64,000 bases of DNA from Leifsonia psychrotolerans (GTDB lineage Bacteria > Actinomycetota > Actinomycetes > Actinomycetales > Microbacteriaceae). This document shows, piece after piece, positions 41,784 to 59,334 of the stretch. Every line of letters begins with the position of its first letter. Positions within the stretch are counted from its first letter, which is position 1. Below the pieces are notes generated by a model. The model was not told where the DNA came from, searched no databases, and saw nothing but the letters and a program-made list of their open reading frames with translations. Location of the stretch: positions 2,728,001 to 2,792,000 of the forward strand of contig NZ_JACCFM010000001.1 of NCBI RefSeq assembly GCF_013410665.1, written 5' to 3'. The position numbers were made by a program, and so were the translations under genes.

Positions 41784-41880
41784 GTCGCACTCCTTCTCTT
41801 TGCTGACTCCACCGTGGCATGACGACCTGAGCAAACCCAACCCACAGGCGCTCCCTCCGCCGACCGAACGTGGGCGGCGG

Positions 41881-42864
41881 TTACGGAGTACGCGAGAGGA
41901 TGCGCAGGAAGTCGGCCAGAAACGCTGAGTAGTCGACGTCGAGCACCACGTGCGTGTCTGGTGCCGGCCGGGCCGGCCAACAGACGGGCATACCGTCCGA
42001 GGTACGCATCAGGAACGCACGCGTCGCGAAGCCGTCGCGGGTCACGTTGACCGGCCCGTCCGCCGAACGGGTGATCCACTCGGGGTGCATCAGTAGGGCA
42101 GCGGCGAGTCCATCGTGTGCGGCAGAGATACGACGCCCCCAGGTGTACTGAGTGAAGTCCATGTAAGCGTCGAGCACATCGGCCGAGAACGTTCCCCAGG
42201 GCGTTCCGGACCGGCGCAACGCCAAGACCCCCTGCTCATCGACGATGGCTCGAGCCGTCACATCGACGCCGACCATCACCAGTGCGCGGCGCGGCGCAGC
42301 GAACATCCGCTCGGCCGCCACCCCATCACTGTGCACATTGGCATCGACCATGAGCATGGTGCCGGGCGCCGGGTACGCTCCGGATCCCCCCATGACAACG
42401 ACCGAGCGGAACAGCGTCAGCAGATCGGGTTCGATCTCAAGCGCGAGCGCCACGTTGCTGAACGGGCCGAGTGGCAACAGGTCGTAATAGCCCGGTCGCG
42501 CGCGGGCCATCTGCACAATCAACTCTGCCGAGCTGAGCGGCGACATATTCTTCGGGCGGAGGGGCGTGGACCAGAGATCTCCCAACCCGTCTTCGCCATG
42601 CACGTGCGAGGCGAGCCGCGACGTTCCCACGATGGGTCCGGCGGCTCCTCGCGCGACGAGCGTATCCTCGAGCTCGGCAACGCTGAGCACGCGGGCGATG
42701 TTCGTCAACGCCGAGTCGACGGAGGTGTTGCCGAACACACTCGTGATGGCCGAGATCTCGGCGTGGGGGTGACCCGCCAGGTAGAGCAGGGCCAGTGCAT
42801 CATCGATTCCGGTGTCGGTGTCGACGATGATGTGTCGGATGGCGTCGGGCGCGTCGAGGTTCAT
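41881..42864 (-). CDS. Nucleoside hydrolase (IunH/RihA superfamily)
   Basis: The protein is 327 aa from ATG 42864; the frame upstream to 43173 is a shadow of the GntR gene. The Ca2+-binding DTDTGIDDALAL (Asp15, Asp17, Asp21, Asp22) is the family hallmark, followed by VFGNTS, LPLGPFSNVALAL and VDANVHSDGVAAERMF. It hydrolyses the N-glycosidic bond of nucleosides to base and free sugar. It is downstream of the GntR regulator on the same strand. Base specificity is not predictable by eye. Confidence 0.9.
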   Translation of the reverse strand: MNLDAPDAIRHIIVDTDTGIDDALALLYLAGHPHAEISAITSVFGNTSVDSALTNIARVLSVAELEDTLVARGAAGPIVGTSRLASHVHGEDGLGDLWSTPLRPKNMSPLSSAELIVQMARARPGYYDLLPLGPFSNVALALEIEPDLLTLFRSVVVMGGSGAYPAPGTMLMVDANVHSDGVAAERMFAAPRRALVMVGVDVTARAIVDEQGVLALRRSGTPWGTFSADVLDAYMDFTQYTWGRRISAAHDGLAAALLMHPEWITRSADGPVNVTRDGFATRAFLMRTSDGMPVCWPARPAPDTHVVLDVDYSAFLADFLRILSRTP

Positions 42865-42901
42865 GGGATTACTTCCGGGTTCAGTGAGCGCTCCAGCAGG
42901 C

Positions 42902-42943
42902 GCTTGAGCGAGCACGAGGGCAGCTTGAGCGAGCACGAGGGCA
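42902..42943. repeat. Two perfect 21-bp direct repeats
   Basis: GCTTGAGCGAGCACGAGGGCA occurs twice in tandem between the nucleoside hydrolase start and the GntR stop. Confidence 0.85.
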
Positions 42944-42955
42944 GCGCAGGCCGCG

Positions 42956-43747
42956 TCAGCGTACGCGCAGGATCGAGAACTGAAAGCGTCCCTCATGAAA
43001 ATAGGTACGCGAGAGCATGATCGGCCGCGCACTGGAGTCGTGGTGAATCTGATGCAGGTAGACGTAGACCATCTCGGGGTCCCGTTCGCCCCACCCGATC
43101 TCGGGCCCGCACGCGGCGTGCAGCTCGGTGACCGCGGTGTGCGGAATGGCACCGGCCTGCTCGAGGAGACCAAACAGTGAGTCGGGGACTGCGTCCGTCG
43201 TCAGGTCGGTCGGAAGCAACGCCCCCGGAATGACCTCATAGGAGTAGGCCACGATGATGTCGTCGGCAATGACGGTGCGCTCGGTGGCGAGCACGCGCGT
43301 GCCTTCCGGGATGCCGAGCGCCGCCGCTTCAGCGGCATCCGCCCCACGAAAACGCACCGCGTGGTAGCGCATCGTGGGTTCCATGCCGTGTGAGCGGATG
43401 GTGTCGCTCATTGATTGCAGTTCCTGCAACCCGGCGGTGATGGCGTGGCCGTACGGCGAGACGAAGGTGCCCGTGCCATGCCGGGTGATCGTCAACCCTT
43501 GGGCTTCCAGCTGCTGCAGCGCCGCGCGGACCGTGCTGCGGGAGACGCCGTACTCGGCCGTCAACGCCGCTTCGGTGGGAAGTTGGGAGCCCTCGGCCCA
43601 TTCGCCGTTGCGCAGCCGCTCGCGCAGACCCTCGGCCAGCTGAACCCGCAGGTTCGTGGTGCGCAGGAGTCGTCCGGTCGAGTTCGGCGTCGCGCCGTCA
43701 GCGGATGCCGGTGCCGGGGTCCGGCCGATTTCGCTCTGAATGACCAC
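42956..43747 (-). CDS. UTRA-domain (HutC-type) GntR transcriptional regulator
   Basis: The protein is 263 aa from GTG 43747, five bases after AGAAGGGG; GTG 43753 and ATG 43801 are upstream alternatives. The winged helix is LRNGEWAEGSQLPTEAALTAEYGVSRSTVRAALQQLEAQGLTITRHGTGTFVS. The UTRA ligand domain follows (GTRVLATERTVIADDIIVAYSYEVIPGALLP, ending YFHEGRFQFSILR). It is divergent from the SDR/phosphorylase/aldolase genes. I propose it binds the GTCmTAyAAC motif at 43841, 55823 and 58600 and controls the whole nucleoside locus. Confidence 0.9.
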   Translation of the reverse strand: MVIQSEIGRTPAPASADGATPNSTGRLLRTTNLRVQLAEGLRERLRNGEWAEGSQLPTEAALTAEYGVSRSTVRAALQQLEAQGLTITRHGTGTFVSPYGHAITAGLQELQSMSDTIRSHGMEPTMRYHAVRFRGADAAEAAALGIPEGTRVLATERTVIADDIIVAYSYEVIPGALLPTDLTTDAVPDSLFGLLEQAGAIPHTAVTELHAACGPEIGWGERDPEMVYVYLHQIHHDSSARPIMLSRTYFHEGRFQFSILRVR

Positions 43748-43840
43748 ATTCACCCCTTCTTGTGGATCGCCGACAGGCACGGCAGGTTCTGAAGGAAGCA
43801 TAGAACACAATTGACTCTGGCCGCTTGTCAGATGTAGGTT

Positions 43841-43850
43841 GTCATATAAC
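43841..43850. promoter_or_regulatory. Candidate GntR operator, site 1
   Basis: GTCATATAAC lies between the GntR and SDR genes, overlapping a TATAAC -10-like box of the SDR promoter. It shows the GT-N6-AC dyad expected for HutC-type GntR proteins and matches sites at 55823-55832 and 58600-58609. Confidence 0.5.
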
Positions 43851-43867
43851 TCGAGGAGGATCCTGCC

Positions 43868-44650
43868 ATGGTTCACGCAACGGATGCCCAACTCCCTGAC
43901 CTCTCCGGAACAACAGTTATCGTGACGGGCGGCAGCGGCAGCATCGGTGGTGGAATCGCTCGGCGTTTCGCCGCCGCCGGCGCCTCGGTCGTCATCCACC
44001 ACTTCTCCGGCGCAAAGGCCGCCGCCCGGGTGGTGGACGAAATCGTCGCCGCTGGAGGCTACGCGCTCAGCGCGCGTGCCGACATCCGTGACCTGGATCA
44101 GTGTCGTGCGGTGGTGCAGAAGGCCGTCGCCGCCTTTGGCCACCTCGACGCACTGGTCAACAACGCCGGCATTCAACCCGTGCAGCCGCTGGCGGGCATG
44201 ACGGTGGCGGAGTGGGAAGCCGTTGTCACCGTTAACCTGTCGGGCACGTTCGCGATGAGCCAGGCCGCCGCCGAGGTCATGAGTGTGCAGGGCTCGGGCT
44301 CGATCACTCATATCGCGTCGGTCGAGGCCAGCCTGCCCGCGCCGAACCACGCGCACTACTCGGTGTCGAAGGCTGCCATCAAGATGCACGCGCGCGCCGC
44401 AGCGCTCGAATTCGGCCCCTCGGGCATTCGCGTCAACTCCGTCTCACCCGGCTTGATCGACGGCGGCGGCCTCGCCGATCAGTGGCCCGAAGGCTACGGC
44501 TCGTGGGTGCGCACCGCCCCACTTCGCCGCACCGGAACCCCCGAAGACATCGGCAACGCCTGCGTGTTTCTGGCTTCACCCCTCGCGGCCTGGATCAGTG
44601 GCCAGGATCTCGTTGTCGACGGAGGCATGTCAGCCGTGCCAGCCTGGTAG
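43868..44650 (+). CDS. SDR family oxidoreductase
   Basis: The protein is 260 aa, with RBS GAGGAGG and ATG 43868. The cofactor motif is VIVTGGSGSIGGGIARRF, then NNAGIQP, catalytic Ser in ITHIASVEAS, and YSVSKAA. A C-terminal SGQDLVVDGGMSA completes the classical SDR. It is first in the plus-strand branch of the nucleoside locus. It might reduce or oxidise the aldehyde released by the aldolase, or a sugar intermediate. Confidence 0.87.
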   Translation: MVHATDAQLPDLSGTTVIVTGGSGSIGGGIARRFAAAGASVVIHHFSGAKAAARVVDEIVAAGGYALSARADIRDLDQCRAVVQKAVAAFGHLDALVNNAGIQPVQPLAGMTVAEWEAVVTVNLSGTFAMSQAAAEVMSVQGSGSITHIASVEASLPAPNHAHYSVSKAAIKMHARAAALEFGPSGIRVNSVSPGLIDGGGLADQWPEGYGSWVRTAPLRRTGTPEDIGNACVFLASPLAAWISGQDLVVDGGMSAVPAW

Positions 44651-44722
44651 CAGTTTCCCTCTCGCCTGAACCACCGTTCGCATCCCGCGCACGCGTTTAC
44701 CCACTCCGGAAGGACCCGTACT

Positions 44723-45472
44723 ATGCCCGTTCGCCTCAGCCCCGAGGAAACCCTGCCGATTCTGCAGGTGAAGGTGTCCGATCTGGCGCCCCTGACGTTG
44801 GTGGCCGGTGACCCGGCCCGCGTCGAGCGCATCGCTGCGCTGTTGGAGAACCCGCGTCGCATCGGTGCGAACCGCGAATACGTGACTTACACCGGTACTT
44901 ACCGCGGCACGCCCGTGAATGTGTGCTCGCACGGAGTCGGCTCGGCCGGCGCCGGAGTCGCGTTCGAAGAGCTCTGCCGCGCGGGCGTCACGCGGATCGT
45001 TCGAGTGGGCACCGCCGGCGGTCTGCAGCCTGACGTGCTCGACGGCTCCATCGTCGTGGCAACCGGCGCAGTGCGTGCCGATGGGCTCTCGCAGCGCATG
45101 GTTCCGCTCGGCTTTCCCGCCGTCGCCGACCTGGATGTCACCGTCGCACTGCGCGCTGCAGCCGCGAAGTCCGGCGTCGACGTGCACACCGGCATCGTGC
45201 TCACCGCCGACAACTTCTACCCCTCCCCCGTGCTCGAGAACGATCAGCGCATGTGGCAGACCGTCGGCGTCGTCGCCGTCGAAATGGAGGTCGCGACTCT
45301 TCTGACCGTTGCGGCCATCAACGGCGTCCAGGCCGGCGCCGTCGTCGCGATTGACGGCAACCCCCTAGCCAACGAGGACGAGTCGATGGCCGAATACCAG
45401 CCATTCCGCGACGTCGTCGACACCGCGGTGAACGCTGCGATTCTCGCGGGCCTCGAAGCTCTCATCTCCTAA
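44723..45472 (+). CDS. Nucleoside phosphorylase (NP-I family; uridine/purine phosphorylase-like)
   Basis: The protein is 249 aa. Phosphate- and ribose-site motifs are visible: VAGDPARVERIA, VGSAGAGVAFEEL, RVGTAGGLQ and the sugar-binding VAVEMEVATLLTVA. It is a hexamer-forming DeoD/Udp-type sequence. It cleaves a nucleoside with phosphate to the base and (deoxy)ribose-1-phosphate, the form needed by the MtnA-like isomerase encoded at 54.8 kb. Base and 5'-group specificity are not predictable by eye. Confidence 0.88.
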   Translation: MPVRLSPEETLPILQVKVSDLAPLTLVAGDPARVERIAALLENPRRIGANREYVTYTGTYRGTPVNVCSHGVGSAGAGVAFEELCRAGVTRIVRVGTAGGLQPDVLDGSIVVATGAVRADGLSQRMVPLGFPAVADLDVTVALRAAAAKSGVDVHTGIVLTADNFYPSPVLENDQRMWQTVGVVAVEMEVATLLTVAAINGVQAGAVVAIDGNPLANEDESMAEYQPFRDVVDTAVNAAILAGLEALIS

Positions 45473-45494
45473 CAGCGCCCCGGCGCATCCGACT

Positions 45495-45520
45495 GAGGCC
45501 AGGGGAATTCCCCTGGCCTC
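45495..45520. repeat. Perfect 26-bp palindrome between phosphorylase and aldolase genes
   Basis: Half-site GAGGCCAGGGGAA is immediately followed by its complement. The palindrome ends 12 bases before the first possible start of the next gene and could cruciform or fold into an intercistronic hairpin that tunes expression or RNA stability. Confidence 0.85.
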
Positions 45521-45543
45521 GCCCGATCAGTATGAGGAATAAC

Positions 45544-47514
45544 ATGCAGAACCGCTGGAACAGTACGACCGCTCCCACGACCGATGCGCTCGACGAGATC
45601 GTTCACGTCTCACGCCTGCTCGGCTCCGATCCCGGCCTTGTACTGCACGGCGGTGGAAACACGTCGATCAAGTCCCAGGCAACCGACGTCACGGGCGAGA
45701 CCGTCGACGTGCTCTATGTCAAGGGCAGCGGATGGGATCTCGTCTCGATCGAGCGCGCCGGCTTCGCGCCGCTGCGGCGGGCCCGTCTGGCCCAGCTGCT
45801 CGCCGTCGAGAAACTCACCGACACTCAGATGATGAACGAGTTGCGCCAGTCCAGCCTCGACTCGAGCGCGCCCGATCCGTCGGTCGAATCCCTGCTGCAC
45901 GCCATGCTGCCGGCCCGCGTCGTGCTGCACTCGCACGCCGACGCCCTGGTCGCCGTAATGAACCAGCCCGACGGCCGTGAGTCGATCGAGCAGATCTATG
46001 GCGACCGCCTAATCGTCATCCCCTACGTCATGCCCGGTTTCGACCTGGCGCGCCTCGTCGCCGAACTCTGGCCGAAGCTCTCGACCCCCGAGACCGAGGG
46101 CATGGTTTTGATGAACCACGGCCTCTTCACGCTCGGTGAGACCGGCGAAGAGGCGTACTCGCGTCACATCGAATTCATTCAGATGGCCGAGGAGCGCGCC
46201 GGGTTCGTCGCCCACGAGGCGCCCGACGCCGCGACGCAGTACACGGATGCCGCCGGCGACCCCCTCGAGCGCGCACGTTTCCGGGCCGACGCCAGCCGTA
46301 TTGCCGGCCGACCGCTGATCGTGCGTGAAAGCGGATCGGCCCGGGCACGCGAGTTCGCCGCGTCGCCCACCGTCTCCGTGCGCGCCACGCACGGTCCGGC
46401 GACACCCGACCACGTCATCCGCACCAAACGTCTGCCGTTGATCGGACGTGACCTGGCCGGTTACGCCAGCGCGTACACCTCCTACTTCGTGGAGTGCTCA
46501 CCGCGACGCGACGCCGCCCTCACCCAGCTCGACGCGGTTCCTCGCGTGGTGCTCGACCCCGAGTGGGGCCTCGTCACCGTCGGCGGTTCCGCCGCCGAGA
46601 CATCGATCGCGGAAGACATCTACCTGCACACCATGGACATCGTCGACGCAGCCGAGCGCCAGAGCGGCTACCAGGCGCTGCCATCCGGTGACATCTTCGA
46701 CGTCGAGTACTGGGAGTTGGAGCAGGCCAAGCTGCGCCGCGGCGCATCGACCAAGCGCTTCCAGGGCGAGATCGCCCTCGTCACCGGTGCGGCGTCCGGA
46801 ATCGGCCGCGCCTGTGCGCAGGTGCTGCTCGATCAGGGCGCTGCCGTCATCGGCCTCGACCTCAGCGAGGGTGTCACCGACACCTTCAGCGCACCGGGTT
46901 GGCTCGGGGTTCAGGCGGATGTCGCCGATCTGGAGCAGCTGCGCAGCGCCATCGAGCAGGGCGTGCGCCGGTTCGGCGGCATCGACATCGTCGTTCCCGC
47001 GGCCGGCATCTTCACGAAGAGTGCCCTGCTCGCCGACATGGATGACGCGGGCTGGCTGCGGAGCCTCAGCGTGAACACCACGGCGGTCGCACGCCTGTTC
47101 AGCCTCGTGCACCCGTACCTCAAGCTGGCCCCGAAGGGCGGCCGTGTGGTGCTGATCGCCACGAAGAACATCGCGGCCCCCGGCCCCGGTGCGTCGTCCT
47201 ACTCGGCGAGCAAGGCGGCCGCGGCCCAGGTCGCACGCGTTGCCGCCCTCGAGTGGGCGCCGGACGGCATCCGTGTGAACCTCGTGCATCCGGATGCTGT
47301 CTTCGACACGGGCCTCTGGACCCCCGAGCTGCTCGCCGAGCGCGCCCGCAAGTACGGTGTGACCGAGGACGAGTACAAGCGCCGCAACCTGCTCAGCCTC
47401 GAGATCACGAGTCTCGACGTGGGACGTGCTGTCGCCGAACTGTGCTCGGACAACTTCCGGGCGACGACCGGCGCCAACCTGCCGGTGGACGGTGGTAACG
47501 AGCGCGTGATCTAG
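45544..47514 (+). CDS. Bifunctional class II aldolase / short-chain dehydrogenase
   Basis: The protein is 656 aa from ATG 45544 behind GAGGA; ATG 45532 is an alternative. Residues 1-390 form a class II aldolase domain (VLHGGGNTSIK, Glu115 in SVESLLHAM, zinc-site LHSHADAL with His129/His131, and LMNHGLFTLG). Residues from about 405 form an SDR domain (IALVTGAASGIGRA, YSASKAA). This is the RhaE/YuxG-type fusion, which cleaves a ketose-1-phosphate to DHAP plus an aldehyde and converts that aldehyde with NAD(H). Here the substrate may be 5-deoxyribulose-1-phosphate or a related sugar. Confidence 0.87.
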   Translation: MQNRWNSTTAPTTDALDEIVHVSRLLGSDPGLVLHGGGNTSIKSQATDVTGETVDVLYVKGSGWDLVSIERAGFAPLRRARLAQLLAVEKLTDTQMMNELRQSSLDSSAPDPSVESLLHAMLPARVVLHSHADALVAVMNQPDGRESIEQIYGDRLIVIPYVMPGFDLARLVAELWPKLSTPETEGMVLMNHGLFTLGETGEEAYSRHIEFIQMAEERAGFVAHEAPDAATQYTDAAGDPLERARFRADASRIAGRPLIVRESGSARAREFAASPTVSVRATHGPATPDHVIRTKRLPLIGRDLAGYASAYTSYFVECSPRRDAALTQLDAVPRVVLDPEWGLVTVGGSAAETSIAEDIYLHTMDIVDAAERQSGYQALPSGDIFDVEYWELEQAKLRRGASTKRFQGEIALVTGAASGIGRACAQVLLDQGAAVIGLDLSEGVTDTFSAPGWLGVQADVADLEQLRSAIEQGVRRFGGIDIVVPAAGIFTKSALLADMDDAGWLRSLSVNTTAVARLFSLVHPYLKLAPKGGRVVLIATKNIAAPGPGASSYSASKAAAAQVARVAALEWAPDGIRVNLVHPDAVFDTGLWTPELLAERARKYGVTEDEYKRRNLLSLEITSLDVGRAVAELCSDNFRATTGANLPVDGGNERVI

Positions 47515-47534
47515 CGCGCCGCGCGCGAACTCGT

Positions 47535-49440
47535 CCCTTCCGCTGGTCGGGCCCGTCGAGACCCAGCGCACCGGCGGTCGAGCCCTCACCGGCGGTCGAG
47601 TCCACCCCGTTGGTCGAGCCCGCACCGTTGGTCGAGCCCACCCCGTTGGTCGAGCCCACCCCGTTGGTCGAGCCCGCACCGGCGGTCGAGCCCACCCCGT
47701 TGGTCGAGCCCGTCGAGACCCCCGCCGGACAACCCCCAGAACGCACCCAACGTTCAAAGACCGACGCACGAGATCTCGACACGCTCGATCAGCGGGGTTA
47801 TACGCCCCGCACCGGCGGTCGAGCCCACACCGTCGGTCGAGCCCACACCGTCGGTCGAGCCCACCCCGTCGGTCGAGCCCGCACCGTCGGTCGAGCCTGT
47901 CGAGACCCCCGCCAGCCAACCCCCAGAACGCACCCAACGTTCAAAGACCGACGCACGAGATCTCGACACGCTCGATCAGCGGGGTTGTACGCCCCGCACC
48001 GTCGGTCGAGCCCGCACCGGCGGTCGAGCCCACCCCGTCGGTCGAGCCCGCACCGTTGGTCGAGCCCGCACCGTTGGTCGAGCCCGCACCGTTGGTCGAG
48101 CCTGCACCGTCGGTCGAGCCTGTCGAGACCCCCGCCAGCCAACCCCCAGAACGCACCCAACGTTCAAAGACCGACGCACGAGATCTCGACACGCTCGATC
48201 AGCGGGGTTATACGCCCCACCCCGTCGGTCGAGCCCGCACCGGCGGTCGAGCCCACACCGTCCGTCGAGCCCACACCGTCCGTCGAGCCCACACCGTCGG
48301 TCGAGCCTGCACCGTCGGTCGAGCCCGTCGAGACCCCCGCCAGCCAACCCCCAGAACGTACCCAACGTTCAAAGACCGACGCACGAGATCTCGACACGCT
48401 CGATCAGCGGGGTTGTACGCCCCGCACCGGCGGTCGAGCCCGCACCGTTGGTCGAGCCCGTCGAGACCCCCGCCAACCAACCCCCAGAACGCACCCAACG
48501 TTCAAAGACCGACGCACGAGATCTCGACACGCTCGATCAGCGGGGTTATACGCCCCACCCCGTCGGTCGAGCCTGCACCGTCGGTCGAGCGCGCACCGGC
48601 GGTCGAGCCCGCACCGTTGGTCGAGCCCACCCCGTTGGTCGAGCCTGTCGAGACCCCCGCCAACCAACCCCCAGAACGCACCCAACGTTCAAAGACCGAC
48701 GCACGAGATCTCGACACGCTCGATCAGCGGGGTTATACGCCCCACCCCGGCGGTCGAGCCCGCACCGTTGGTCGAGCCTGCACCGGCGGTCGAGCCTGTC
48801 GAGACCCCCGCCAGCCAACCCCCAGAACGCACCCAACGTTCAAAAACCGACGCACGAGATCTCGACACGCTCGATCAGCGGGGTTATACGCCCCACCCCG
48901 TCGGTCGAGCCCGCACCGGCGGTCGAGCCCGCACCGGCGGTCGAGCCCGCACCGGCGGTCGAGCCCGCACCGTTGGTCGAGCCCACACCGTCCGTCGAGC
49001 CCGCACCGTCGGTCGAGCCCGCACCGTTGGTCGAGCCCGTCGAGACCCCCGCCAACCAACGCCCAGAACGCACCCAACGTTCAAAGACCGACGCACGAGA
49101 TCTCGACACGCTCGATCAGCGGGGTTATACGCCCCGCACCGTCGGTCGAGCCCGTCGAGACCCCCGCCAGCCAACCCCCAGAACGCACCCAACGTTCAAA
49201 GACCGACGCACGAGATCTCGACACGCTCGATCAGCGGGGTTGTACGCCCCGCACCGGCGGTCGAGCCCGCACCGTTGGTCGAGCCTGTCGAGACCCCCGC
49301 CGGACAACGCCCAGAACGCGCCCAACGTTCAAAGACCGACGCACGAGATCTCGACACGCTCGATCAGCGCGGGTTGCACGATCAGCGAGGGTTGGCCGAT
49401 CAGCGCGGGTTGCACGATCAGCGCGGGTTGGCCGGTGTGG
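47535..49440. repeat. Two-level tandem repeat array, 10 cores
   Basis: A conserved core starts GACCCCCGCC at 47717, 47904, 48127, 48332, 48465, 48652, 48803, 49044, 49159 and 49292. It includes CAGAACGCACCCAACGTTCA and CGAGATCTCGACACGCTCGA. Between cores runs a variable number of 18-bp units (GCACCGTTGGTCGAGCC-like, with GTT/GTC/GGC variants). All nine core-to-core distances equal 115 + 18k (k = 4,6,5,1,4,2,7,0,1). The array ends in degenerate GATCAGCGCGGGTTG units. It fills the convergent gap between the aldolase/SDR and cupin genes. ORFs in it are by-products of stop-free repeats. Confidence 0.95.
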
Positions 49441-49487
49441 CTCGCCCTACGCGTCACAGTGGCCGCGAGCGGCACACCGCGCAGCGA

Positions 49488-49988
49488 CTAGACCCGGGTG
49501 AGGGCGGTGATGCGCTCGGCGGCGTGCGGGTAAGCCGCGACGAACTCGTCACGGTCGGCCAGCACGAACTCCTCCTGGGTGTAGCCCGGCGACATCGTGG
49601 TGCCGACGAAGCTCCACACTCCGGCACTCGATGATCCCTGCCAGACGCCGCCGGGCACCGGGAACTGCGGAACCTGGCCGGCCGCCACATCCGGGCCGAG
49701 CACGGGCTCCTCGACTGTGCCATCGGCGTGCAGCAGAAAGAGTTGAACGGGATCTCCGGCGTACCAGTGGTACACCTCGACCGAATCAAGTTTGTGCAGG
49801 GCCGAAAAGTCCGGTGCGACGAGCATGTAATAGATCGCCGACGAGAATGCGTCCTTGTAGGACTCCTTGTAAAGCCCGCCCTCGTGCGGCAGCGGCTTGA
49901 GGCCGAGCGTCGTGGCGATCAGCGCGGCATCCGGCGGGAGCACCGGCACAGTGGTGTGCGCGGTGCCCGCCATATTCTCGTGCGTCAT
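49488..49988 (-). CDS. DUF985-type cupin protein
   Basis: The protein is 166 aa from ATG 49988, overlapping the permease stop (ATGA). The cupin barrel shows GGLYKESYKD, AIYYMLVAPDFSALHKLDSVEVYHWYAGDPVQLFLL and WSFVGTTMSPGYTQEEFVL, the DUF985 pattern. Residues H and E of LHKLDSVEVYHW may bind metal or substrate. It is last in the mtnA/ABC operon, so a role with the imported nucleoside or its sugar (for example an isomerase or epimerase) is possible. Function unknown. Confidence 0.82.
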   Translation of the reverse strand: MTHENMAGTAHTTVPVLPPDAALIATTLGLKPLPHEGGLYKESYKDAFSSAIYYMLVAPDFSALHKLDSVEVYHWYAGDPVQLFLLHADGTVEEPVLGPDVAAGQVPQFPVPGGVWQGSSSAGVWSFVGTTMSPGYTQEEFVLADRDEFVAAYPHAAERITALTRV

Positions 49989-52068: not shown

Positions 52069-53588
52069 ACTGCGTCCTCCGCAGCCCGGCCACCGGCCAT
52101 GAGCAGGCCGAGTTCGGATTCGGTCGCGGTGGCAGCGTCGAGCTCCGCGACGATTCGCCCTTCGAACATCACAAGGATCCTTCCTGACAGGCTCAGAATT
52201 TCGGAGAGTTCGGCAGAAATCAGCAGAACCGCTCCCCCACGATCCCGGTACTCGGTGATCTCACGGTGAATTGATTCGATCGCGCCGACGTCCACGCCGC
52301 GCGTGGGCTGCTCGGAGATCAGAACGGGCGACTCGTAGTCGAGTTCACGCGCCACCACGATCTTCTGCAGGTTTCCACCGGAGAGCGTTCCGACTGCCGT
52401 GCTCGGCGAGGCGATCTTGATGCCGAAGCGTTTGATCAAACGTTGGGCCTGCTCGACCATGCGCGACCGACTCAACAGCCCGTGTTTGAGCAGTGGAGCT
52501 GTGCGGTGGTGCCCCATCGAGAGATTGAGCGCGGCATCCGCTGTGGGTGCCGTTCCGACGCCATGGCGGTCCTCGGGAATGTATGAGATGCCGGCATCGC
52601 GGCGCGCTCGCACCCCGCCGCTCGAGACGTCGTCGCTTCCGACCGTGACGGTACCGCCCGTGGTGCGGCGCATCCCCACGATGGCCTCAGCAAGTTCGGA
52701 TTGCCCGTTACCGGCGACACCGGCGATGCCGACGATTTCGCCCTTGTGCACCGTGAGGTCGACGTTGTCGACGGCGAGACGGTTGCCGTTTCCGGGTACT
52801 GTCACGCCGCGCACCGTCAAAATCGCCTCTCCAGGCGGGTTCGCGGCCGGGGCGGTCGACAGGTCGACATCACGCCCGACCATATGCCGAGTGATCTCTG
52901 CGGCAGAGCTCTCGGCCGTCACCAGACGGGCGACGACACGGCCATCGCGCAGAACAGTGACCCGGTCGGAGAGCTCCATGACTTCGCGCATCTTGTGCGT
53001 GATGAAAATGATCGTGCGGCCATCGGCTTTGAGGGCGCGCAGCACGTCGAAAAGCCGGTCGGTCTCTTGCGGAGTGAGCACCGCGGTCGGCTCATCGAGG
53101 ATGAGCACCTTCGCATCGCGGTACAGAGCCTTGATGATTTCGACCCGCTGCAGCACGCCGACCGGAACCGAGTCCACGCGTGCGGACGGATCGACGGCCA
53201 AACCGTAGCGCTCGGAGATCGCGGCGACCTGCGCCTTGGCCTCACGCTGATCGATCAAACCAGAACGGGTGGGCTCCTGCCCGAAGATCACGTTCTCGGC
53301 GATGGTCAGCGAGGGAAAAAGTTTGAATGATTGGAAAACCATGCCAATACCGGCCTGGATGGCATCTTGCGGAGAGGCGAAGTTCACCTTGTCGCCACGC
53401 ACGTAGATTTCGCCTTCATCAGGCTGGTACAGCCCAGCCAGAATCGACATCAGAATCGACTTGCCGGCACCGTTCTCGCCCATCAGGGCATGGATCTCAC
53501 CGGTTTCAACCGAAAAAGAGACGTTGTCGTCGGCGAGCACACCGGGGAACCGCTTGGTAATGCCCTGCATGTCAATTTCGAGCGTCAC
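52065..53588 (-). CDS. Nucleoside ABC transporter ATPase, two fused ABC domains
   Basis: The protein is 507 aa (YufO/RbsA-like). Domain 1 has Walker A GENGAGKSI, with Ile where Thr or Ser is usual, and Walker B VLILDEPTAVL. Its signature is atypical (VGVLQRVEII). Domain 2 has a degenerate Walker A (GVAGNGQSEL, Gln for Lys) but a good signature LSGGNLQKIVVARE. Domain asymmetry of this sort is normal for the family. It energises import by the two permeases and the BMP lipoprotein. Confidence 0.92.
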   Translation of the reverse strand: MTLEIDMQGITKRFPGVLADDNVSFSVETGEIHALMGENGAGKSILMSILAGLYQPDEGEIYVRGDKVNFASPQDAIQAGIGMVFQSFKLFPSLTIAENVIFGQEPTRSGLIDQREAKAQVAAISERYGLAVDPSARVDSVPVGVLQRVEIIKALYRDAKVLILDEPTAVLTPQETDRLFDVLRALKADGRTIIFITHKMREVMELSDRVTVLRDGRVVARLVTAESSAAEITRHMVGRDVDLSTAPAANPPGEAILTVRGVTVPGNGNRLAVDNVDLTVHKGEIVGIAGVAGNGQSELAEAIVGMRRTTGGTVTVGSDDVSSGGVRARRDAGISYIPEDRHGVGTAPTADAALNLSMGHHRTAPLLKHGLLSRSRMVEQAQRLIKRFGIKIASPSTAVGTLSGGNLQKIVVARELDYESPVLISEQPTRGVDVGAIESIHREITEYRDRGGAVLLISAELSEILSLSGRILVMFEGRIVAELDAATATESELGLLMAGGRAAEDAV

Positions 53589-53632
53589 GACTACTCCTCA
53601 AGAAATTCCCGTTGCCGTGCAACGAAGTCAAA

Positions 53633-53671
53633 GCTCTCGGATCGGCACGCAGTGCGTGCCGATCCGAGAGC
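53633..53671 (-). terminator. Intercistronic hairpin between the BMP lipoprotein and ATPase genes
   Basis: Perfect 18-bp arms (53633-53650, 53654-53671) around a 3-base loop, 29 bases after the BMP stop. Such stems after binding-protein genes usually raise binding-protein expression over the membrane components by partial termination or 3'-end protection. Confidence 0.75.
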
Positions 53672-53699
53672 AACTGCCGCTTTAGGCGACGAGTGGACC

Positions 53700-54749
53700 C
53701 TAGCCCTGCAGGGGGTCGGGAATGGTGATCTCGCCATCGATGATCTTCTGCTTGGCAGCAGCGAGCTGAGCGACGACGTCCGGGTGCTCCATGACGGTGC
53801 ACTGGCTGGTTTCGGCATCCTTCGACAGGCTGACGATGTCCATTCCACCCTCGGCCAGTCCGTACGAGCTCACGCCTTCGGCCGTTCCGTCGAGGATCTT
53901 GCCGATCTCGGAGACAAGCACAACGTTCGCGTACTTGAGCGAGCCGTCGCCGACGACGCCGGGAGCGTCGGGGCACTGGTTCACGTCGACGCCGTAGCTG
54001 GTGAAGCTCTGTGCGTCAGCGGCTTCAAAGATTCCGCCGTTCGAGCCTGCTCCCACAGCGAAGATCTGGTCACGGCCGGTGGCGGCCATGGCGAGCGCCT
54101 GCTCCTTGCCCTTGGCCGGGTCGGCGAACGGGTTCGTTCCACCGATGAACAGCTGCGAGTCTTCGATTGCCGGGTTGACGCTCTTCGCGCCGAGCGCGAA
54201 GGAGTCGGTGTAACGGTGCAGGAAGGGGATGTCGACCGAGGCGACCGAACCAATCTTGTTGGTCTTGGTCAGCGCGCCGGCCTCGATGCCGAGCAGGTAG
54301 GACGGCTCGTACTCACGGAAAACGGCACAGTGCAGGTTCGCCGGTGCGTCTGCCGGGCAGGCGTCGATGAGCAGGAATTCCTGGTCGGCGTTGGCTTCGG
54401 CGAATTCCTTCGACAGGTCTTCGTAGTTGAAGCCCATCATCGTGATGACGTCGGGGGCTTCACCCACGGCAGCCTCAAGGTTCGCCCGTGCGGTCTCGGC
54501 GTTGTTCTGGCCTTCGAAGACCTTGGAGGTGCCGCCGAACTTCTTGGCTGCTTCCTCGATGCCGACCTTGCCGGACTCGAGGAACTTGTTGATGCCGATC
54601 GGCTCGAAGGTGACGTAGATGAAAGACTTCTCCGTCTTTCCGTTGCTTACGTTGTCACCCGTGGCAGCTCCGCCTGCGGAACAACCGGTCAGCAGGAGTG
54701 CTCCTGCCGCGATGGCTGCGGAGATCCCTACGAATTTATGCGTCTTCAT
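53700..54749 (-). CDS. BMP family nucleoside-binding lipoprotein
   Basis: The protein is 349 aa. Signal peptide with lipobox LLLTGC (Cys23), then a periplasmic-binding fold of the Bmp/Med/PnrA type (FIYVTFEPIGINKFLESGKVGIEEAAKKFG, VITMMGFNYEDLSKEFAEA, IGSVASVDIPFLHRYTDSFALGAK, FAVGAGSNGGIFEAAD). PnrA-type proteins bind purine and other nucleosides. It is directly downstream of mtnA in the same operon. Confidence 0.9.
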   Translation of the reverse strand: MKTHKFVGISAAIAAGALLLTGCSAGGAATGDNVSNGKTEKSFIYVTFEPIGINKFLESGKVGIEEAAKKFGGTSKVFEGQNNAETARANLEAAVGEAPDVITMMGFNYEDLSKEFAEANADQEFLLIDACPADAPANLHCAVFREYEPSYLLGIEAGALTKTNKIGSVASVDIPFLHRYTDSFALGAKSVNPAIEDSQLFIGGTNPFADPAKGKEQALAMAATGRDQIFAVGAGSNGGIFEAADAQSFTSYGVDVNQCPDAPGVVGDGSLKYANVVLVSEIGKILDGTAEGVSSYGLAEGGMDIVSLSKDAETSQCTVMEHPDVVAQLAAAKQKIIDGEITIPDPLQG

Positions 54750-54773
54750 GGATGTTGTTGCCCCTTCGTTTGG

Positions 54774-55799
54774 TTAAACAGTACGCGTTGGACCGAGGTC
54801 GACATTACGCATGGTCTGGCCAAGAGCCGGCCGAACGATGCGACGATCGGTCACAATTGCCGTGATCAGATCGTGCGGCGTCACGTCGAACGCCGGATTG
54901 ACGGTGCGCGTGCCCTCGGGAGCGGTGCGCAGACCGGCGAAGTTGGTCACTTCCTCTGAACCGCGGTCTTCGATCTCGATGTCCTCACCGGTCTCGGTGT
55001 TGACGTCGACCGTGGACTCCGGAGCGACAACAATGAACGGCACGCCGGCACGCTGTGCGGCGAGCGCGAGCGAGAACGAGCCCACCTTGTTGGCCGTGTC
55101 GCCGTTGGCGGCAATGCGATCGGCGCCGATGAAAACGGCATCCGCGATTCCGCGCGAGAGCAAGAATGGGCCGGCCGAATCGACGAGGAGACGGAACGGT
55201 GCACCCATCTGGGTGAGCTCCCAGGCCGTCAGACGAGCGCCCTGCAGCAGCGGGCGAGTTTCGACCGGGAATGCTTCTTCAAGCCAGCCCTGTTCGAAGA
55301 TCGTCTGGATGACGCCGAGCGCCGTTCCGCGCTCGACCGCGGCCAGGCCACCGGTGTTGCAAATGGTCATGATGCGGGCCTTCTCGCGCGTGACGAGCGA
55401 GCGCACCAGGTCGGCCCCGTAGAGGCCCATCGAGATGGATGCGGCGACGTCTTCATCGCGAATGGCGAGCGCCTCGGTCAGAACGGCCGCCGGCCCCTCG
55501 TCAATGCGCTTCATCACACGGTCGACGCCCCAGGACAGGTTGACGGCGGTCGGACGCGCTTCGCGCAGCAGCGCAGCGTTCGCATGCACCTCGTCGAGGC
55601 TCGACGCCTGCTGGGCAATCATTGCCACACCGAGGGCACCGGCTACACCGAGGGCCGGCGCGCCGCGCACGGCCAGACGCTGGATGTCGACGATCAAATC
55701 GTCCAGCGTGGTGATCCGTCGCTTCTCGAGTGCGCCGGGCAGTCGGGTCTGGTCGATGAGCTCAATAGCTCCATCAATCCAGTCGATGGTGCGAACCAT
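54774..55799 (-). CDS. mtnA: S-methyl-5-thioribose-1-phosphate isomerase-like protein
   Basis: The protein is 341 aa of the eIF2B-like isomerase family. MtnA catalytic residues are present: Cys147 in IMTICNTGGLA and Asp227 in IGADRIAANGDTANKVG, with RGAPALGVAGA near residue 45. It converts 5-methylthioribose-1-phosphate, or 5-deoxyribose-1-phosphate in DHAP-shunt homologues, to the ribulose-1-phosphate. No mtnK, mtnB, mtnC or mtnD is nearby, so the methionine salvage route is not encoded here. Operon head with importer genes; candidate promoter and operator directly upstream. Confidence 0.88.
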   Translation of the reverse strand: MVRTIDWIDGAIELIDQTRLPGALEKRRITTLDDLIVDIQRLAVRGAPALGVAGALGVAMIAQQASSLDEVHANAALLREARPTAVNLSWGVDRVMKRIDEGPAAVLTEALAIRDEDVAASISMGLYGADLVRSLVTREKARIMTICNTGGLAAVERGTALGVIQTIFEQGWLEEAFPVETRPLLQGARLTAWELTQMGAPFRLLVDSAGPFLLSRGIADAVFIGADRIAANGDTANKVGSFSLALAAQRAGVPFIVVAPESTVDVNTETGEDIEIEDRGSEEVTNFAGLRTAPEGTRTVNPAFDVTPHDLITAIVTDRRIVRPALGQTMRNVDLGPTRTV

Positions 55800-55822
55800 G
55801 TGTTTCCTTTCGGTTGACAGAT

Positions 55823-55832
55823 GTCATACAAC
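55823..55832. promoter_or_regulatory. Candidate GntR operator, site 2
   Basis: GTCATACAAC lies just downstream of the predicted transcription start of the mtnA operon, a position where bound repressor would block it. It matches sites 1 and 3. Confidence 0.5.
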
Positions 55833-55839
55833 TGGGGCC

Positions 55840-55868
55840 AGCCTAGTATTTGCCCTCGAGCCCGTCAA
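55840..55868 (-). promoter_or_regulatory. Promoter of the mtnA-BMP-ABC operon
   Basis: On the minus strand TTGACG (55863-55868) is separated by 17 bases from TAGGCT (55840-55845), a good actinobacterial sigma-70 pair. Operator site 2 follows within about 10 bases of the expected +1. Confidence 0.55.
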
Positions 55869-55910
55869 CAAACCAAAGCAACCTGCCAGATCACGATGTG
55901 ACCCGCCCTG

Positions 55911-57137
55911 TCAGCGCGGGCGTGGCACGATCTTCGAAGTCCAGAGTCCGCTGAAAAGAATCAGCGTCGCCGCACCGGTCACGACCCAGAATGCGTGCGA
56001 ATATCCGGATGCGTCGGCGAGCGCCCCGGCGATCGGCGCGCTCACTGCGGTGCCGGCCACGAGTCCGCTCGACATCAGTGTCATCACAACCGTCACACGA
56101 TCGGTCGGGGCGGTGTACGACGCGACGGCGAAGATGCTCACCAGAGCCGGCCCGACGCCGAGGCCGATGCAGAACATCGTGATGAGCAGCGCCGGAACCG
56201 AGTGCACCATCGGCAGGAAGAGTGAGCCCATGAGCACGATTGCGGCACCGGCGACCCAGCGCCACGGCAGCCAGAACCGGGAGGGCAGCGCGGCGGTGGC
56301 CAATGCCGTCAATGCCGAGCCGATTCCCATCGCACCGTAGAGGAAACCAGCGTCGGCGACGTTGCCTCGCTCCCCGGCAAAGGCCGTCACGGCGGTCAGC
56401 ATCGCACCGAACACCATACCCACGCTCAACATGCCGAACACGGGCACCGAGACCCGGGGGTTGAAAAGCTTCTTCATCGGGGTGCGCAGGGCGCGCGCGA
56501 TACCGTTCGGTTTCACCGCCTCGACGGTTCGGTGGTTCGCAAACCAGCTCACGAAGATGAAGGTCACGACGGCGGCCACAATCAGTGGGGAGTACTCGCC
56601 CCACACGAGTGCGGCGGCACCCACCGCGACGGGTCCGAAAACGAAGGTCAGTTCATCCGCCATCGACTCCCAGCCCATCGCGGCGGCGAGCGTGCGGTCG
56701 GCCCCCGGAGCACCATGCTGTGCCTGCACCAGGGCGATCCATCGTGCCCGCGCCAACGGCCCGACCTGCGGTGCGCTGAATCCGATCAGGAACGACAACA
56801 GCAGAATGAAGCCCAGGTGACTGTCGATCTTCACCAGTCCGACGAGACCGAGCATGACAAGGCCGTTGAACACTCCAACCACCTGCACCACCACACGTTG
56901 CCCGTAACGATCGGCCAGGGCGCCGACCAGCGGCGCTCCGATGGCCGAACCGAGGCCCAGCGCGCCCGAGGCGATTCCGCCCTCGCCATAGGAATCCCGA
57001 GCCCAGGCGACAAGCAGCGTGACACCGACCGTGAACATGGCCAGAGGAAACCGCGCCAGGAAGCCCAGTGGCAGAAAGACGTAGCCGGCAAGCCGCGGCA
57101 ATCCGCGGTAACCACCGCGCTGGTCGTCGCTCGTCAC
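55911..57137 (-). CDS. MFS transporter
   Basis: The protein is 408 aa with about 12 membrane segments. The loop between helices 2 and 3 reads GAPLVGALADRYGQRVVVQ, the MFS signature, with an equivalent in the second half. It starts two bases after the amidohydrolase stop, so the two are co-transcribed. It may export a purine product or aldehyde, or import a nucleoside. Direction unknown. Confidence 0.87.
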   Translation of the reverse strand: MTSDDQRGGYRGLPRLAGYVFLPLGFLARFPLAMFTVGVTLLVAWARDSYGEGGIASGALGLGSAIGAPLVGALADRYGQRVVVQVVGVFNGLVMLGLVGLVKIDSHLGFILLLSFLIGFSAPQVGPLARARWIALVQAQHGAPGADRTLAAAMGWESMADELTFVFGPVAVGAAALVWGEYSPLIVAAVVTFIFVSWFANHRTVEAVKPNGIARALRTPMKKLFNPRVSVPVFGMLSVGMVFGAMLTAVTAFAGERGNVADAGFLYGAMGIGSALTALATAALPSRFWLPWRWVAGAAIVLMGSLFLPMVHSVPALLITMFCIGLGVGPALVSIFAVASYTAPTDRVTVVMTLMSSGLVAGTAVSAPIAGALADASGYSHAFWVVTGAATLILFSGLWTSKIVPRPR

Positions 57138-57139
57138 GG

Positions 57140-58477
57140 TCAGCCCTCGTGCGCGGCCGAGTGTGCGAGCAGCGAGGCGGCCGCGAGCTCTCGCAGGATT
57201 GTGGGCTCATCCGCCGTCAGCAGTGCACGATCGCGCACCACGACACGGCCGTCGCTCACCGTGTGTCGCACGTCAGACGCCGATGCGCCATAGACGATGC
57301 GCGACCACGGGTCGGGGGTCGGCGCACTCGCGAGGGTGTCGGTGTGCACCACCTGGATGTCGGCGCGCATGCCGACGGCGAGGGTGCCGACATCCGTCAG
57401 CCCGAGGCTGCGCGCACCGTCGGCGGTGCCGAGACGCACGGCACGCTCGGCGTTGATCAGTGTCGGGTCCTGCGAGACGCCCTTGTGCAGAAGCGCGGCC
57501 ATGCGCACCGTCTGCATCATGTCGAGGCTGCCCGTGGATGCCGCGCCGTCGGTGCCGAGCGCGACGCTCGCTCCCGCGGCGAGCAGGTCGGGCACGCGCG
57601 CAATGCCGCAGGCGATCTTGAGGTTCGAAATGGGCGCGTGCGCGACGGTGGCGCCGATGCGGGCGATCGTGGCGATCTCGTCGTCGGTGAGGTGCACCGC
57701 GTGGGCGAGAACCGTTGTGTCGGTGACCAGTCCAGCCTCATCGAGGACGGCGAGTGGGCGGGCGTCGTGCTGTGCGGCGACGAGGGCGATCTCGCCGCTG
57801 CTCTCGGCGCAGTGCGTGTGGATGCGGGCACCGAACCGGGCCGCGAGTTCGCTCACGCGACGCAGCTGTTCGCTGCCCAACGTGTACGCGGAGTGCGGCA
57901 TGAGCCAGAGGTTGTCGTTGGGCGCATCCGCACGGTTCTCGGTCAGGATTCGTTCGGCCTGCACGAGCATGGCGTCGAAGTCGTTGCCCTCGGGGTCGAC
58001 GTCGCCCATCAGCGTCGGGCCGTTGATCAGGCGAAAGCCCAGCTCGCGGGCGACGGCACGCGAGGTCTGCGGGTACCAGTACATGTCGAGGGCCGTCGTG
58101 GTGCCGCCCAGCAGGCTCTCGGCCATTGCCGCGCGGGCGCCGATCGCAACGGTCTCTGCACTCAGAACGCGACGCTCTGCGCCGATCAGACGGTCAAGGA
58201 AGGTCTCGAGCGTGACGTCGTCTGTCGCACCCCGGAACAGGTTCATGGCGAGGTGCGCGTGGGTGTTCACCCATCCCGGCAGCGCACTGCACCCCGCGCC
58301 GTCGAGCACCTCCGTGGCGGTGTAGCGGGCCGAGATCTGCGGCTCGTCGCCGATGCCCACGATCACGCCGTCGTTGATGGCGATCGCACCGGCCGTGATC
58401 ACGGTGCCCGCCTCATCGACGGTGAGAATCGTGTCGGCTCGAACAATCAGGTCAATGGATTCGCGCGTCTCGGTCAT
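57140..58477 (-). CDS. Amidohydrolase, 5-methylthioadenosine/S-adenosylhomocysteine deaminase-like
   Basis: The protein is 445 aa. Metal and catalytic motifs of the ATZ/TRZ/MtaD branch are present: NTHAHLAMNLFRG (His73, His75), IHTHCAES, LAHAVHLTDDE and ALGTDGAAS. Family members deaminate 5'-methylthioadenosine, S-adenosylhomocysteine and 5'-deoxyadenosine (DadD) to the inosine forms. With the phosphorylase and MtnA in the same locus, a 5'-modified adenosine is the likely substrate. Divergent from the class II aldolase gene. Confidence 0.87.
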   Translation of the reverse strand: MTETRESIDLIVRADTILTVDEAGTVITAGAIAINDGVIVGIGDEPQISARYTATEVLDGAGCSALPGWVNTHAHLAMNLFRGATDDVTLETFLDRLIGAERRVLSAETVAIGARAAMAESLLGGTTTALDMYWYPQTSRAVARELGFRLINGPTLMGDVDPEGNDFDAMLVQAERILTENRADAPNDNLWLMPHSAYTLGSEQLRRVSELAARFGARIHTHCAESSGEIALVAAQHDARPLAVLDEAGLVTDTTVLAHAVHLTDDEIATIARIGATVAHAPISNLKIACGIARVPDLLAAGASVALGTDGAASTGSLDMMQTVRMAALLHKGVSQDPTLINAERAVRLGTADGARSLGLTDVGTLAVGMRADIQVVHTDTLASAPTPDPWSRIVYGASASDVRHTVSDGRVVVRDRALLTADEPTILRELAAASLLAHSAAHEG

Positions 58478-58599
58478 GGTGGCTCCTTCTGTAGTGCGGG
58501 GAATGCTCCCCCGCAGAACACGCGCACCACGCGACCAACACCATCGGTGTGAACTTCGGTCTCAGCCTCGGCCGTGGCCGTGCGCGGACGTCAGTGACA

Positions 58600-58609
58600 G
58601 TTGTAGGAC
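58600..58609. promoter_or_regulatory. Candidate GntR operator, site 3
   Basis: GTTGTAGGAC on the plus strand (GTCCTACAAC on the minus) lies in the divergent space between the amidohydrolase and class II aldolase genes. It is flanked by an outer ACGTCA / TGACGT inverted repeat. One base differs from site 2. Confidence 0.5.
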
Positions 58610-58704
58610 AAGTGACGTTCGACGACGTGTTGATTTTGCTAGAGTATGGCCCACCGTCGCAGTTCGTCAAATAGTTTTGAGTGCCGCCACCTCGAGAGGC
58701 CACC

Positions 58705-59334
58705 ATGCAATTCCATCACACAGACCTTGTCGATCAGCTGATCGCCGCGGGCCGTACCGTCGTCGAACGCGGCCTCGCCCTCGCCAGCGGCGGCAACCTC
58801 TCGGCCCGCGTTCCCGGCTCCGACAGTTTTATCGTGACGCGCTCCGGGGCCTGGCTCAACAGTCTGGTCCCGGACGACTTCTCGGTGCTCGGCCCTGACG
58901 GCCAGGTGATCTCCGGCAGCGCGCATCCGTCGTCGGAGTGGAAGCTGCACGCCTACAGCTACCAAGCCCGTCCCGATGCGAATGCGATCGTGCACGTGCA
59001 CCCGCAGATGGCCGTGTTGCTGGATGCGCTCGGCGCCGAGATTCGCCTGATCACGCTGGACCACGCCTATTACGTGCGGTCGGTCGGTCGAACCCCTTAC
59101 TACCCGAACGGTTCCGACGAGCTGGCGCGCACGGCTGCCGAGCAGGCACGCGAGCACGATTGCGTGATTCAGGGCAACCACGGCTGTTCGACGCTGGGGG
59201 CGAATGTCGAGATGGCACTGCGGCGCGCGCTGAACCTTGAGGAGGCGGCGACTCTCACCTACCGCGCCCTCGCCCTGGGCGACACGACGACGGCGTTCCC
59301 GCGCGACGCGTTTGAGGGGCTCGCGCACAGCTAG
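58705..59334 (+). CDS. Class II aldolase (fuculose-phosphate aldolase / DrdA-like)
   Basis: The protein is 209 aa from ATG 58705 (GAGAGG six bases upstream); an in-frame GTG at 58681 would add eight residues. Zinc ligands and acid are visible: Glu78 (SSEWKLH), His97 and His99 (IVHVHP), His159 (QGNHGCS), with the phosphate-binding SGGNLSARV and RSGAWL. It cleaves a ketose-1-phosphate to DHAP and an aldehyde. With MtnA in the same regulon, 5-deoxyribulose-1-phosphate (DHAP + acetaldehyde) or its methylthio analogue is the inferred substrate. Confidence 0.88.
   Translation: MQFHHTDLVDQLIAAGRTVVERGLALASGGNLSARVPGSDSFIVTRSGAWLNSLVPDDFSVLGPDGQVISGSAHPSSEWKLHAYSYQARPDANAIVHVHPQMAVLLDALGAEIRLITLDHAYYVRSVGRTPYYPNGSDELARTAAEQAREHDCVIQGNHGCSTLGANVEMALRRALNLEEAATLTYRALALGDTTTAFPRDAFEGLAHS

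Follow-up and report, generated by a model that had tools for sequence, protein, structure and literature searches.

A candidate GntR-controlled nucleoside branch of a dihydroxyacetone phosphate shunt in Leifsonia psychrotolerans

Introduction

Do a nucleoside importer, a deaminase, a phosphorylase, a sugar phosphate isomerase and two class II aldolases that lie close together on a chromosome constitute a single pathway and, if so, what does it degrade? This question is raised by positions 42956 to 59334 of the window, by which we mean the whole 64 kb stretch analysed here, from the one-contig, 3.82 Mb genome of Leifsonia psychrotolerans. An earlier note on this DNA had proposed that the region encodes a kinase-free route from nucleosides to dihydroxyacetone phosphate (DHAP), with its own importer and regulator. 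We consider it probable that the locus forms the nucleoside branch of a DHAP shunt that is under GntR control and acts on 5'-deoxynucleosides, such as 5'-deoxyadenosine, methylthioadenosine (MTA) or their inosine forms. This reading draws on gene families, conserved gene order, co-occurrence, a shared palindrome and active-site residues, from which we infer the substrates, the direction of the reactions and the action of the repressor.

Many of the components have precedents. Escherichia coli ATCC 25922 encodes the kinase form of the DHAP shunt as mtnK-mtnA-ald2-transporter, with the MtnR repressor, and both the use of external 5'-deoxynucleosides and the dedicated repressor have been shown in E. 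coli (PMC12632272, PMC10986504). An MtnP variant of the shunt is named in PMC10986504, phosphorylase-type shunts, as well as clusters that include transporters, were reported in 2018 (PMC6079011), and deaminase-first routes have been reviewed (PMC6302742). The deaminase-first order, the phosphorylase variant, the shunt transporters and the use of external 5'-deoxynucleosides have each been described already.

Results

Gene content of the locus

Gene identities were assigned from Pfam and NCBIfam profile matches and from sequence matches to PDB entries, and the profiles bore out the presence of every gene that the earlier note had named. Nucleosides would be taken up by an ATP-binding cassette (ABC) importer, consisting of a BMP-type substrate-binding lipoprotein (53700-54749; Pfam Bmp), a two-domain ATPase (52065-53588; two stretches of ABC_tran) and the permeases A (50902-52068) and B (49985-50902), both matching BPD_transp_2. 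The binding protein, a predicted nucleoside binder, matched mostly BMP-type lipoproteins in the PDB, the best being 7x0r (Lbp), with TmpC (2fqw) also among them. Adenine forms would then be deaminated by an amidohydrolase (57140-58477; Amidohydro_1), a predicted MTA/5'-deoxyadenosine deaminase with the best PDB match to 4f0r, an MTA/S-adenosylhomocysteine (SAH) deaminase. The NP-I phosphorylase (44723-45472; PNP_UDP_1), a predicted 5'-deoxy-6-oxopurine nucleoside phosphorylase, would release hypoxanthine and 5-deoxy- or 5-methylthio-ribose-1-phosphate, and the MtnA-type aldose-1-phosphate isomerase (54774-55799; TIGR00512, 365.8 bits against a cut-off of 279) would convert this ribose-1-phosphate derivative to the ribulose-1-phosphate. 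One or both of the class II aldolases would finally cleave the product to DHAP and an aldehyde. One of these is a bifunctional fusion to a short-chain dehydrogenase (SDR; 45544-47514), part of a combination that the earlier note had thought unusual; it belongs to the existing family NF006196 (920 bits against a cut-off of 831). The other stands alone (58705-59334) and is most similar by sequence among PDB entries to 6btd, the DrdA of Bacillus thuringiensis (88.8 bits); no DrdA-specific model matched it, and its assignment to the DrdA/Ald2 type is by similarity only. The parts fit the previously proposed order of import, deamination, phosphorolysis, isomerisation and cleavage, as far as sequence can indicate function.

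The active sites are consistent with these assignments. MtnA carries the isomerase catalytic residues Cys147 and Asp227 where they had been reported, and the expected metal ligands were found in both aldolases and in the deaminase. In the stand-alone aldolase, Glu and three His occupy the expected metal site, and we take these residues to bind the metal.

The genes are arranged as compact runs. On the minus strand, the deaminase gene is followed after 2 bp by that of a major facilitator superfamily (MFS) transporter (55911-57137; MFS_1), and then by MtnA, the BMP protein, the ATPase, the two permeases and a Cupin_5/DUF985 protein (49488-49988; Pfam Cupin_5). The last of these was missed by the earlier note, although it is conserved with the unit; it ends an importer operon in which the ATPase, permease and Cupin_5 genes overlap successively by 1-4 bp, the overlap between Cupin_5 and the last permease being 4 bp. 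On the plus strand, an SDR oxidoreductase (43868-44650; Pfam) heads a run that continues with NP-I and the aldolase-SDR fusion, and is divergent from a GntR/UTRA regulator on the minus strand (42956-43747, start uncertain; Pfam GntR and UTRA), the predicted repressor of the unit. The stand-alone aldolase, also on the plus strand, is divergent from the deaminase. Long inverted repeats were seen by eye in the gap between the BMP and ATPase genes (53589-53699) and in that between NP-I and the fusion (45473-45543), and are possible mRNA processing or attenuation signals.

Conservation of the locus in relatives

Relatives of MtnA were collected as 47 loci from named genomes and 25 from 398 genomes of the family (from the 26 best places, after removal of that of the window), and their neighbourhoods were read by tblastn, as a simple gene caller misread strands in L007 and in part of L002. 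The order MtnA, BMP protein, ATPase, permease A, permease B and Cupin_5, on one strand, is kept in 17 of the 17 loci whose MtnA is full-length and shares at least 65.5% identity with that of the window, a set that excludes the window itself (L001) and L015, a 3.2 kb contig with a split match. Other called genes intervene between the ATPase and permease A in L061. Twelve of the 17 loci belong to Leucobacter or to genus g15, two to small-genome g6 species, and one each to g48, a Bifidobacteriaceae metagenome-assembled genome (MAG) and Modestobacter. The twelve are called Leucobacter-type here since their MtnA sequences interleave in the tree, and no pair of them has its longest megablast piece at 97% identity or more. 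The MtnA proteins of the 17 loci and the window form a single clade (support 100/99). Cupin_5 is present in every one of the 17 operons, and its His65, Glu71 and His74 are invariant in 18 sequences.

Further members of the locus accompany this core in several relatives. L002 holds MtnA, the importer, Cupin_5, NP-I, an MTA-phosphorylase-like gene (TIGR01694, 269.0, slightly below the cut-off of 274.85), an SDR, a GntR and an aldolase, all inside 10.4 kb; L007 adds SDR, GntR, aldolase and NP-I to the core, with NP-I and aldolase adjacent on the same strand; and L054 adds NP-I, deaminase, SDR and GntR. The GntR copies beside the SDR are 61-62% identical to the window's in L002 and L007, and 43% in L054. 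A partial second MtnA-type match lies at the end of L007. In L012, an Acidimicrobiales MAG, a methylthioinosine-phosphorylase-family gene (NF006599, 240.8 against a cut-off of 223), a class II aldolase, MtnA, a deaminase and a BMP-like gene (26%) are consecutive. Copies of the fusion lie near MtnA in L063 and L064 (74% identical by tblastn), and the MFS transporter has a 35% identical relative in L064, near NP-I and an adenosine deaminase. Each of six g15 genomes (G208, G096, G253, G158, G323 and G376) has, besides the core operon, an operon of SDR, deaminase and NP-I genes and an aldolase gene that stands alone.

The enzymes also tend to be found in the same genomes. Among the 398 genomes of the family, MtnA (at least 280 bits) was found in 17 and the aldolase (E of at most 1e-40) in 17, with both in 15 and neither in 379 (Fisher 3e-23); G261 and G213 have MtnA without the aldolase, and G339 and G160 the reverse. 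NP-I at least 57% identical was found in eight genomes, comprising 8 of the 10 with a close MtnA and none of the 388 others (3e-15); both p-values are too small because the genomes are related, six of the eight NP-I genomes coming from g15. The unit is mostly absent from the genus to which the window belongs: eight of the nine other sampled members listed have no MtnA match, and the ninth (G392) has a distant one (34%).

Nine loci from other genomes of the family (L049-L053, L067, L069, L072 and L073) contain a different MtnA (43-47% identity) with a RuBisCO-like gene, and all but L073 also encode an MtnK-like protein together with a sugar-binding one; L067 and L069 have a split transketolase pair beside these genes. 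They possibly represent a separate 5-deoxypentose route. Open frames of 595-890 amino acids at eight loci had suggested that MtnA might be fused to another enzyme. This was rejected: at seven of them (L049-L053, L072 and L073) the neighbouring RuBisCO-like gene is read in a different frame from MtnA, and the eighth, L071, yielded no RuBisCO-like gene.

A shared palindrome and the GntR regulator

The palindrome GTTGTnnnACAAC occurs in the window before the SDR and beside GntR (43838-43850, as GTTGTCATATAAC, with one mismatch to GTTGTNNNACAAC), before MtnA (55820-55832, one mismatch) and in the gap between the deaminase and the stand-alone aldolase (58600-58612, one mismatch), and each of these is a predicted GntR operator. 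Only one other site with at most one mismatch was found in the 64 kb, at 60056, inside a dehydrogenase gene. Given the number of sites in the genome (67), the expectation for the three gaps, 545 bp in total, is 0.01.

The palindrome also follows the regulator between genomes. A site lies within 350 bp of MtnA in 8 of 8 loci with a GntR in the cluster, against 0 of 62 without one, counted over 70 MtnA loci including the window, with L033 and L035 left out as their upstream DNA was short. As the motif was defined on the window, L002, L007 and L054, the loci L063, L064, L065 and L070 are independent of its definition, and all four contain the exact palindrome; equally independent is the genome's own MtnK operon, described below, where it has one mismatch. 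In L002 and L007, it was found at up to one mismatch before MtnA, and not before the SDR.

Conserved order, co-occurrence and the shared palindrome therefore indicate a gene grouping beyond chance. They support the view, already put forward in the earlier note, that the importer, deaminase, phosphorylase, isomerase and DrdA-type aldolase belong together. These genes share a predicted GntR operator, and GntR would be their repressor. It is conceivable that the GntR-SDR-NP-I-fusion run and the importer-MtnA-deaminase-aldolase group are two unrelated units that are adjacent by chance, as a repeat array of 1.9 kb lies between them, and both the fusion and the aldolase have relatives in other surroundings. 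However, this is very improbable, as the same palindrome occurs at both units, members of both are united in L002, L007 and L054, and the closer relatives of NP-I are confined to sampled genomes with a close MtnA.

Likely substrates

The NP-I phosphorylase scores nearest to uridine phosphorylases overall, yet carries the purine-type IDGNP motif. When aligned with DeoD and Udp of E. coli K-12, its Asp211 matches the Asp of DeoD, whereas its Ile13 aligns with His5 of DeoD, one column off His8 of Udp. We take the DeoD-type His to hold the nucleoside 5'-hydroxyl. Eleven of the 12 aligned NP-I sequences, including the window's, have Ile, Leu or Val in this column and keep the purine Asp; the twelfth, the uridine-phosphorylase-like protein of L064 (37%), has no residue in the His column and Ser in place of Asp. 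Together with the phosphorylases of L002 and L012, and the MtnK of the sister clusters described below, these residues point to 5'-deoxy or 5'-methylthio nucleosides in their 6-oxo form, which would explain the presence of a deaminase.

The alternative that ranks second is that ordinary purine nucleosides are degraded, with inosine converted to ribose-1-phosphate, then by the MtnA-like isomerase to ribulose-1-phosphate, and then to DHAP and glycolaldehyde. BMP importers commonly carry ordinary nucleosides. Halophilic archaea are known to carry out the last step (PMC9700705), and the model of their ribulose-1-phosphate aldolase, NF053831, is a weak match here (83.2 against 300). We nevertheless regard this alternative as unlikely. 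The DeoD-type His is absent from NP-I, genes of the MTA or methylthioinosine phosphorylase type occur in L002 and L012, a methylthioribose (MTR) kinase is found in clusters with the same palindrome, and the genome has a separate PunA-type purine nucleoside phosphorylase for ordinary purine nucleosides. Furthermore, MtnA fits TIGR00512, and not the ribose-1,5-bisphosphate isomerase model TIGR00511 (150.3 against a cut-off of 314.1).

A kinase branch and methionine salvage genes elsewhere in the genome

Three sister clusters with the same palindrome (L064, L065 and L070) combine a sugar-binding ABC importer with a kinase, which exceeds the TIGR01767 (MTR kinase) cut-off in L064 and L070, and in L065 is 61% identical to that of L064. 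A fourth, L063, is cut by a contig end and contains GntR, MtnA, a sugar-binding protein and the fusion. In L064 both kinds of module lie side by side, with MtnA-sugar ABC importer-MtnK-aldolase-fusion divergent from GntR-esterase-NP-I-adenosine deaminase-BMP-like-MFS. The sister-cluster kinase was matched in 4 of 28 genomes, including the window's own at 2.901 Mb (69%), where, about 114 kb from the locus, an operon of sugar-binding protein, ATPase, permease and MtnK stands beside a second GntR. The divergent gap there carries the palindrome as GTTGTCAGACAGC, with one mismatch. This operon would supply the same 1-phosphates from free sugars, and the two branches would meet at the window's MtnA, the sole PF01008 match in the genome. 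Candidate sources of 5-deoxypentose-1-phosphate are present both at the locus, as NP-I, and elsewhere in the genome, as MtnK and an MTA/SAH nucleosidase.

The genome also contains mtnB and mtnC, both over their cut-offs, together with an acireductone dioxygenase (mtnD-type) gene at 3.55 Mb, about 760 kb past the window's end. Hence the earlier descriptions of the route as kinase-free, and of mtnA as lacking mtnB, mtnC, mtnD and mtnK beside it, hold for the locus and not for the organism: one MtnA would serve both the phosphorylase and the kinase branches, and independence from methionine salvage does not follow. With a single MtnA and mtnBCD in the genome, the unit might mainly feed methionine salvage, imported MTA being converted to methylthioribulose-1-phosphate with sulfur as the goal. 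This is improbable, slightly more so than the use of ordinary nucleosides, since the 20 kb around mtnBCD contains no palindrome with at most one mismatch, it is the aldolases, and not mtnBCD, that sit by the shared palindromes, and it is the aldolase that co-occurs with MtnA. In the preferred reading, that of a DHAP shunt, an MTA-derived product could alternatively enter mtnBCD, and two entry branches, and possibly two exits, would converge on the single MtnA.

Observations that weigh against a dedicated shunt

Several observations count against interpreting the locus as a dedicated 5'-deoxynucleoside shunt. Firstly, the core operon, the SDR-deaminase-NP-I operon and the aldolase are mutually unlinked in Leucobacter-type genomes, and a shared operator was rejected there, since the g15 and Leucobacter loci had no palindrome with at most one mismatch, and no such GntR passed the filter. 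Secondly, the palindrome is not enriched across the genome, its 67 sites in 3.82 Mb comparing with 112 for a reversed control pattern. Thirdly, the window's aldolase is 66-68% identical to the copies in G339 and G160, neither of which has an MtnA match at E 0.001, such that the substrate range of the aldolase may be wider; the G339 copy adjoins an aldehyde-dehydrogenase-like gene, near that of a xylulokinase-like FGGY kinase. Fourthly, in G279, of the window's own genus, relatives of NP-I (40%) and the deaminase (65%) are adjacent (L093, 1895-3948), and the genome has no MtnA match. Finally, neither the deaminase nor NP-I reaches the cut-off of any NCBIfam family listed, and the MTA phosphorylase of S. 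solfataricus keeps the DeoD-type His to which a role in holding the 5'-hydroxyl was assigned above.

Repeat arrays and neighbouring genes

Between the fusion and the Cupin_5 gene (47567-49434) is an intergenic array of 1.9 kb, made of 18 bp GGTCGAGCC-type repeats with GGTCGAGCCnGTCGAGACC units; these units are matched 14 times across the window with two mismatches or fewer, against 0.05 expected. Open reading frames at 47.6-49.4 kb were ruled out as genes, being frames of this non-coding array. A second, similar array adjoins the MtnK operon (L096, 14979-16744).

Histidine-phosphatase and nucleoside hydrolase genes (41127-43173) adjoin GntR on the same strand. The hydrolase had been counted as a member of the unit, but both genes were set aside, as neither had a detected relative in the loci compared. 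A phage-integrase-family gene lies close to the window's end (62772-63620).

Discussion

In our reading, the locus arranges a pathway that is already known in a new way, and does not amount to a pathway of its own. In common with the DHAP shunt of E. coli, it has the MtnA and class II aldolase steps, a transporter gene and a dedicated predicted repressor, and would use external 5'-deoxynucleosides as a carbon source (PMC10986504, PMC12632272); it differs in having a BMP-type ABC importer, a deaminase, NP-I, a GntR regulator and Cupin_5, with the kinase operon elsewhere in the genome. The DrdK-DrdI-DrdA salvage of 5-deoxyribose likewise combines a phosphorylase or kinase with an MtnA-type isomerase and the DrdA aldolase, and some of its clusters include sugar transporters, whereas the available text names no nucleoside ABC importer or deaminase (PMC6079011). 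The same order of deamination before phosphorolysis is found in the MTA deaminase and methylthioinosine phosphorylase of Pseudomonas aeruginosa, while in Methanocaldococcus jannaschii, with a 5'-deoxyadenosine deaminase and MtiP, MtnA acts on the 5'-deoxyadenosine route, as proposed here; neither an importer nor a regulon is described for these routes in the portions of the review that were available (PMC6302742). The window's NP-I differs in scoring nearest to uridine phosphorylases, and the methylthioinosine phosphorylase model is absent from its matches. A biosynthetic route in an 'S.' species, which unlike the locus starts from a self-made substrate, reportedly also passes through phosphorolysis, isomerisation and an aldol cleavage, with no kinase step. 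As cited in PMC6079011, that route converts a 5'-modified nucleoside to DHAP and an aldehyde, and the non-carboxylating pentose bisphosphate pathway of haloarchaea similarly reaches DHAP and an aldehyde from the nucleoside sugar through a class II aldolase (PMC9700705), both of which resemble what is proposed for the locus. The haloarchaeal pathway differs in its enzymes, as the models of its ribose-1,5-bisphosphate isomerase and ribulose-1-phosphate aldolase stay below their cut-offs at the locus.

What is new is the predicted nucleoside ABC importer, the predicted GntR regulon that would join the nucleoside and sugar branches, and the Cupin_5 protein of all 17 operons. Among open-access papers, to which the search was confined, none was found linking a BMP-type nucleoside importer or DUF985 to the DHAP shunt, and the titles and abstract openings of the DUF985 literature contained nothing on the function of a bacterial DUF985 protein. 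A broader claim than that of the nucleoside branch itself is possible, but less likely than not: this may be a scavenging system for external 5'-deoxynucleosides, and the first DHAP shunt with its own nucleoside ABC importer and deaminase-first phosphorolysis, in which one GntR operator links a parallel free-sugar importer with MtnK, both branches feed one MtnA, and Cupin_5 is a new pathway enzyme.

Reactions of S-adenosylmethionine in all cells leave 5'-deoxynucleosides, which are often excreted. If the reading is correct, and Actinomycetota do possess a catabolic regulon supplied by an importer, some bacteria would be living on such waste, and not merely detoxifying it. The operator, importer and MtnA would then provide a genetic handle on where 5'-deoxynucleosides occur, and DUF985 cupins would gain a functional context.

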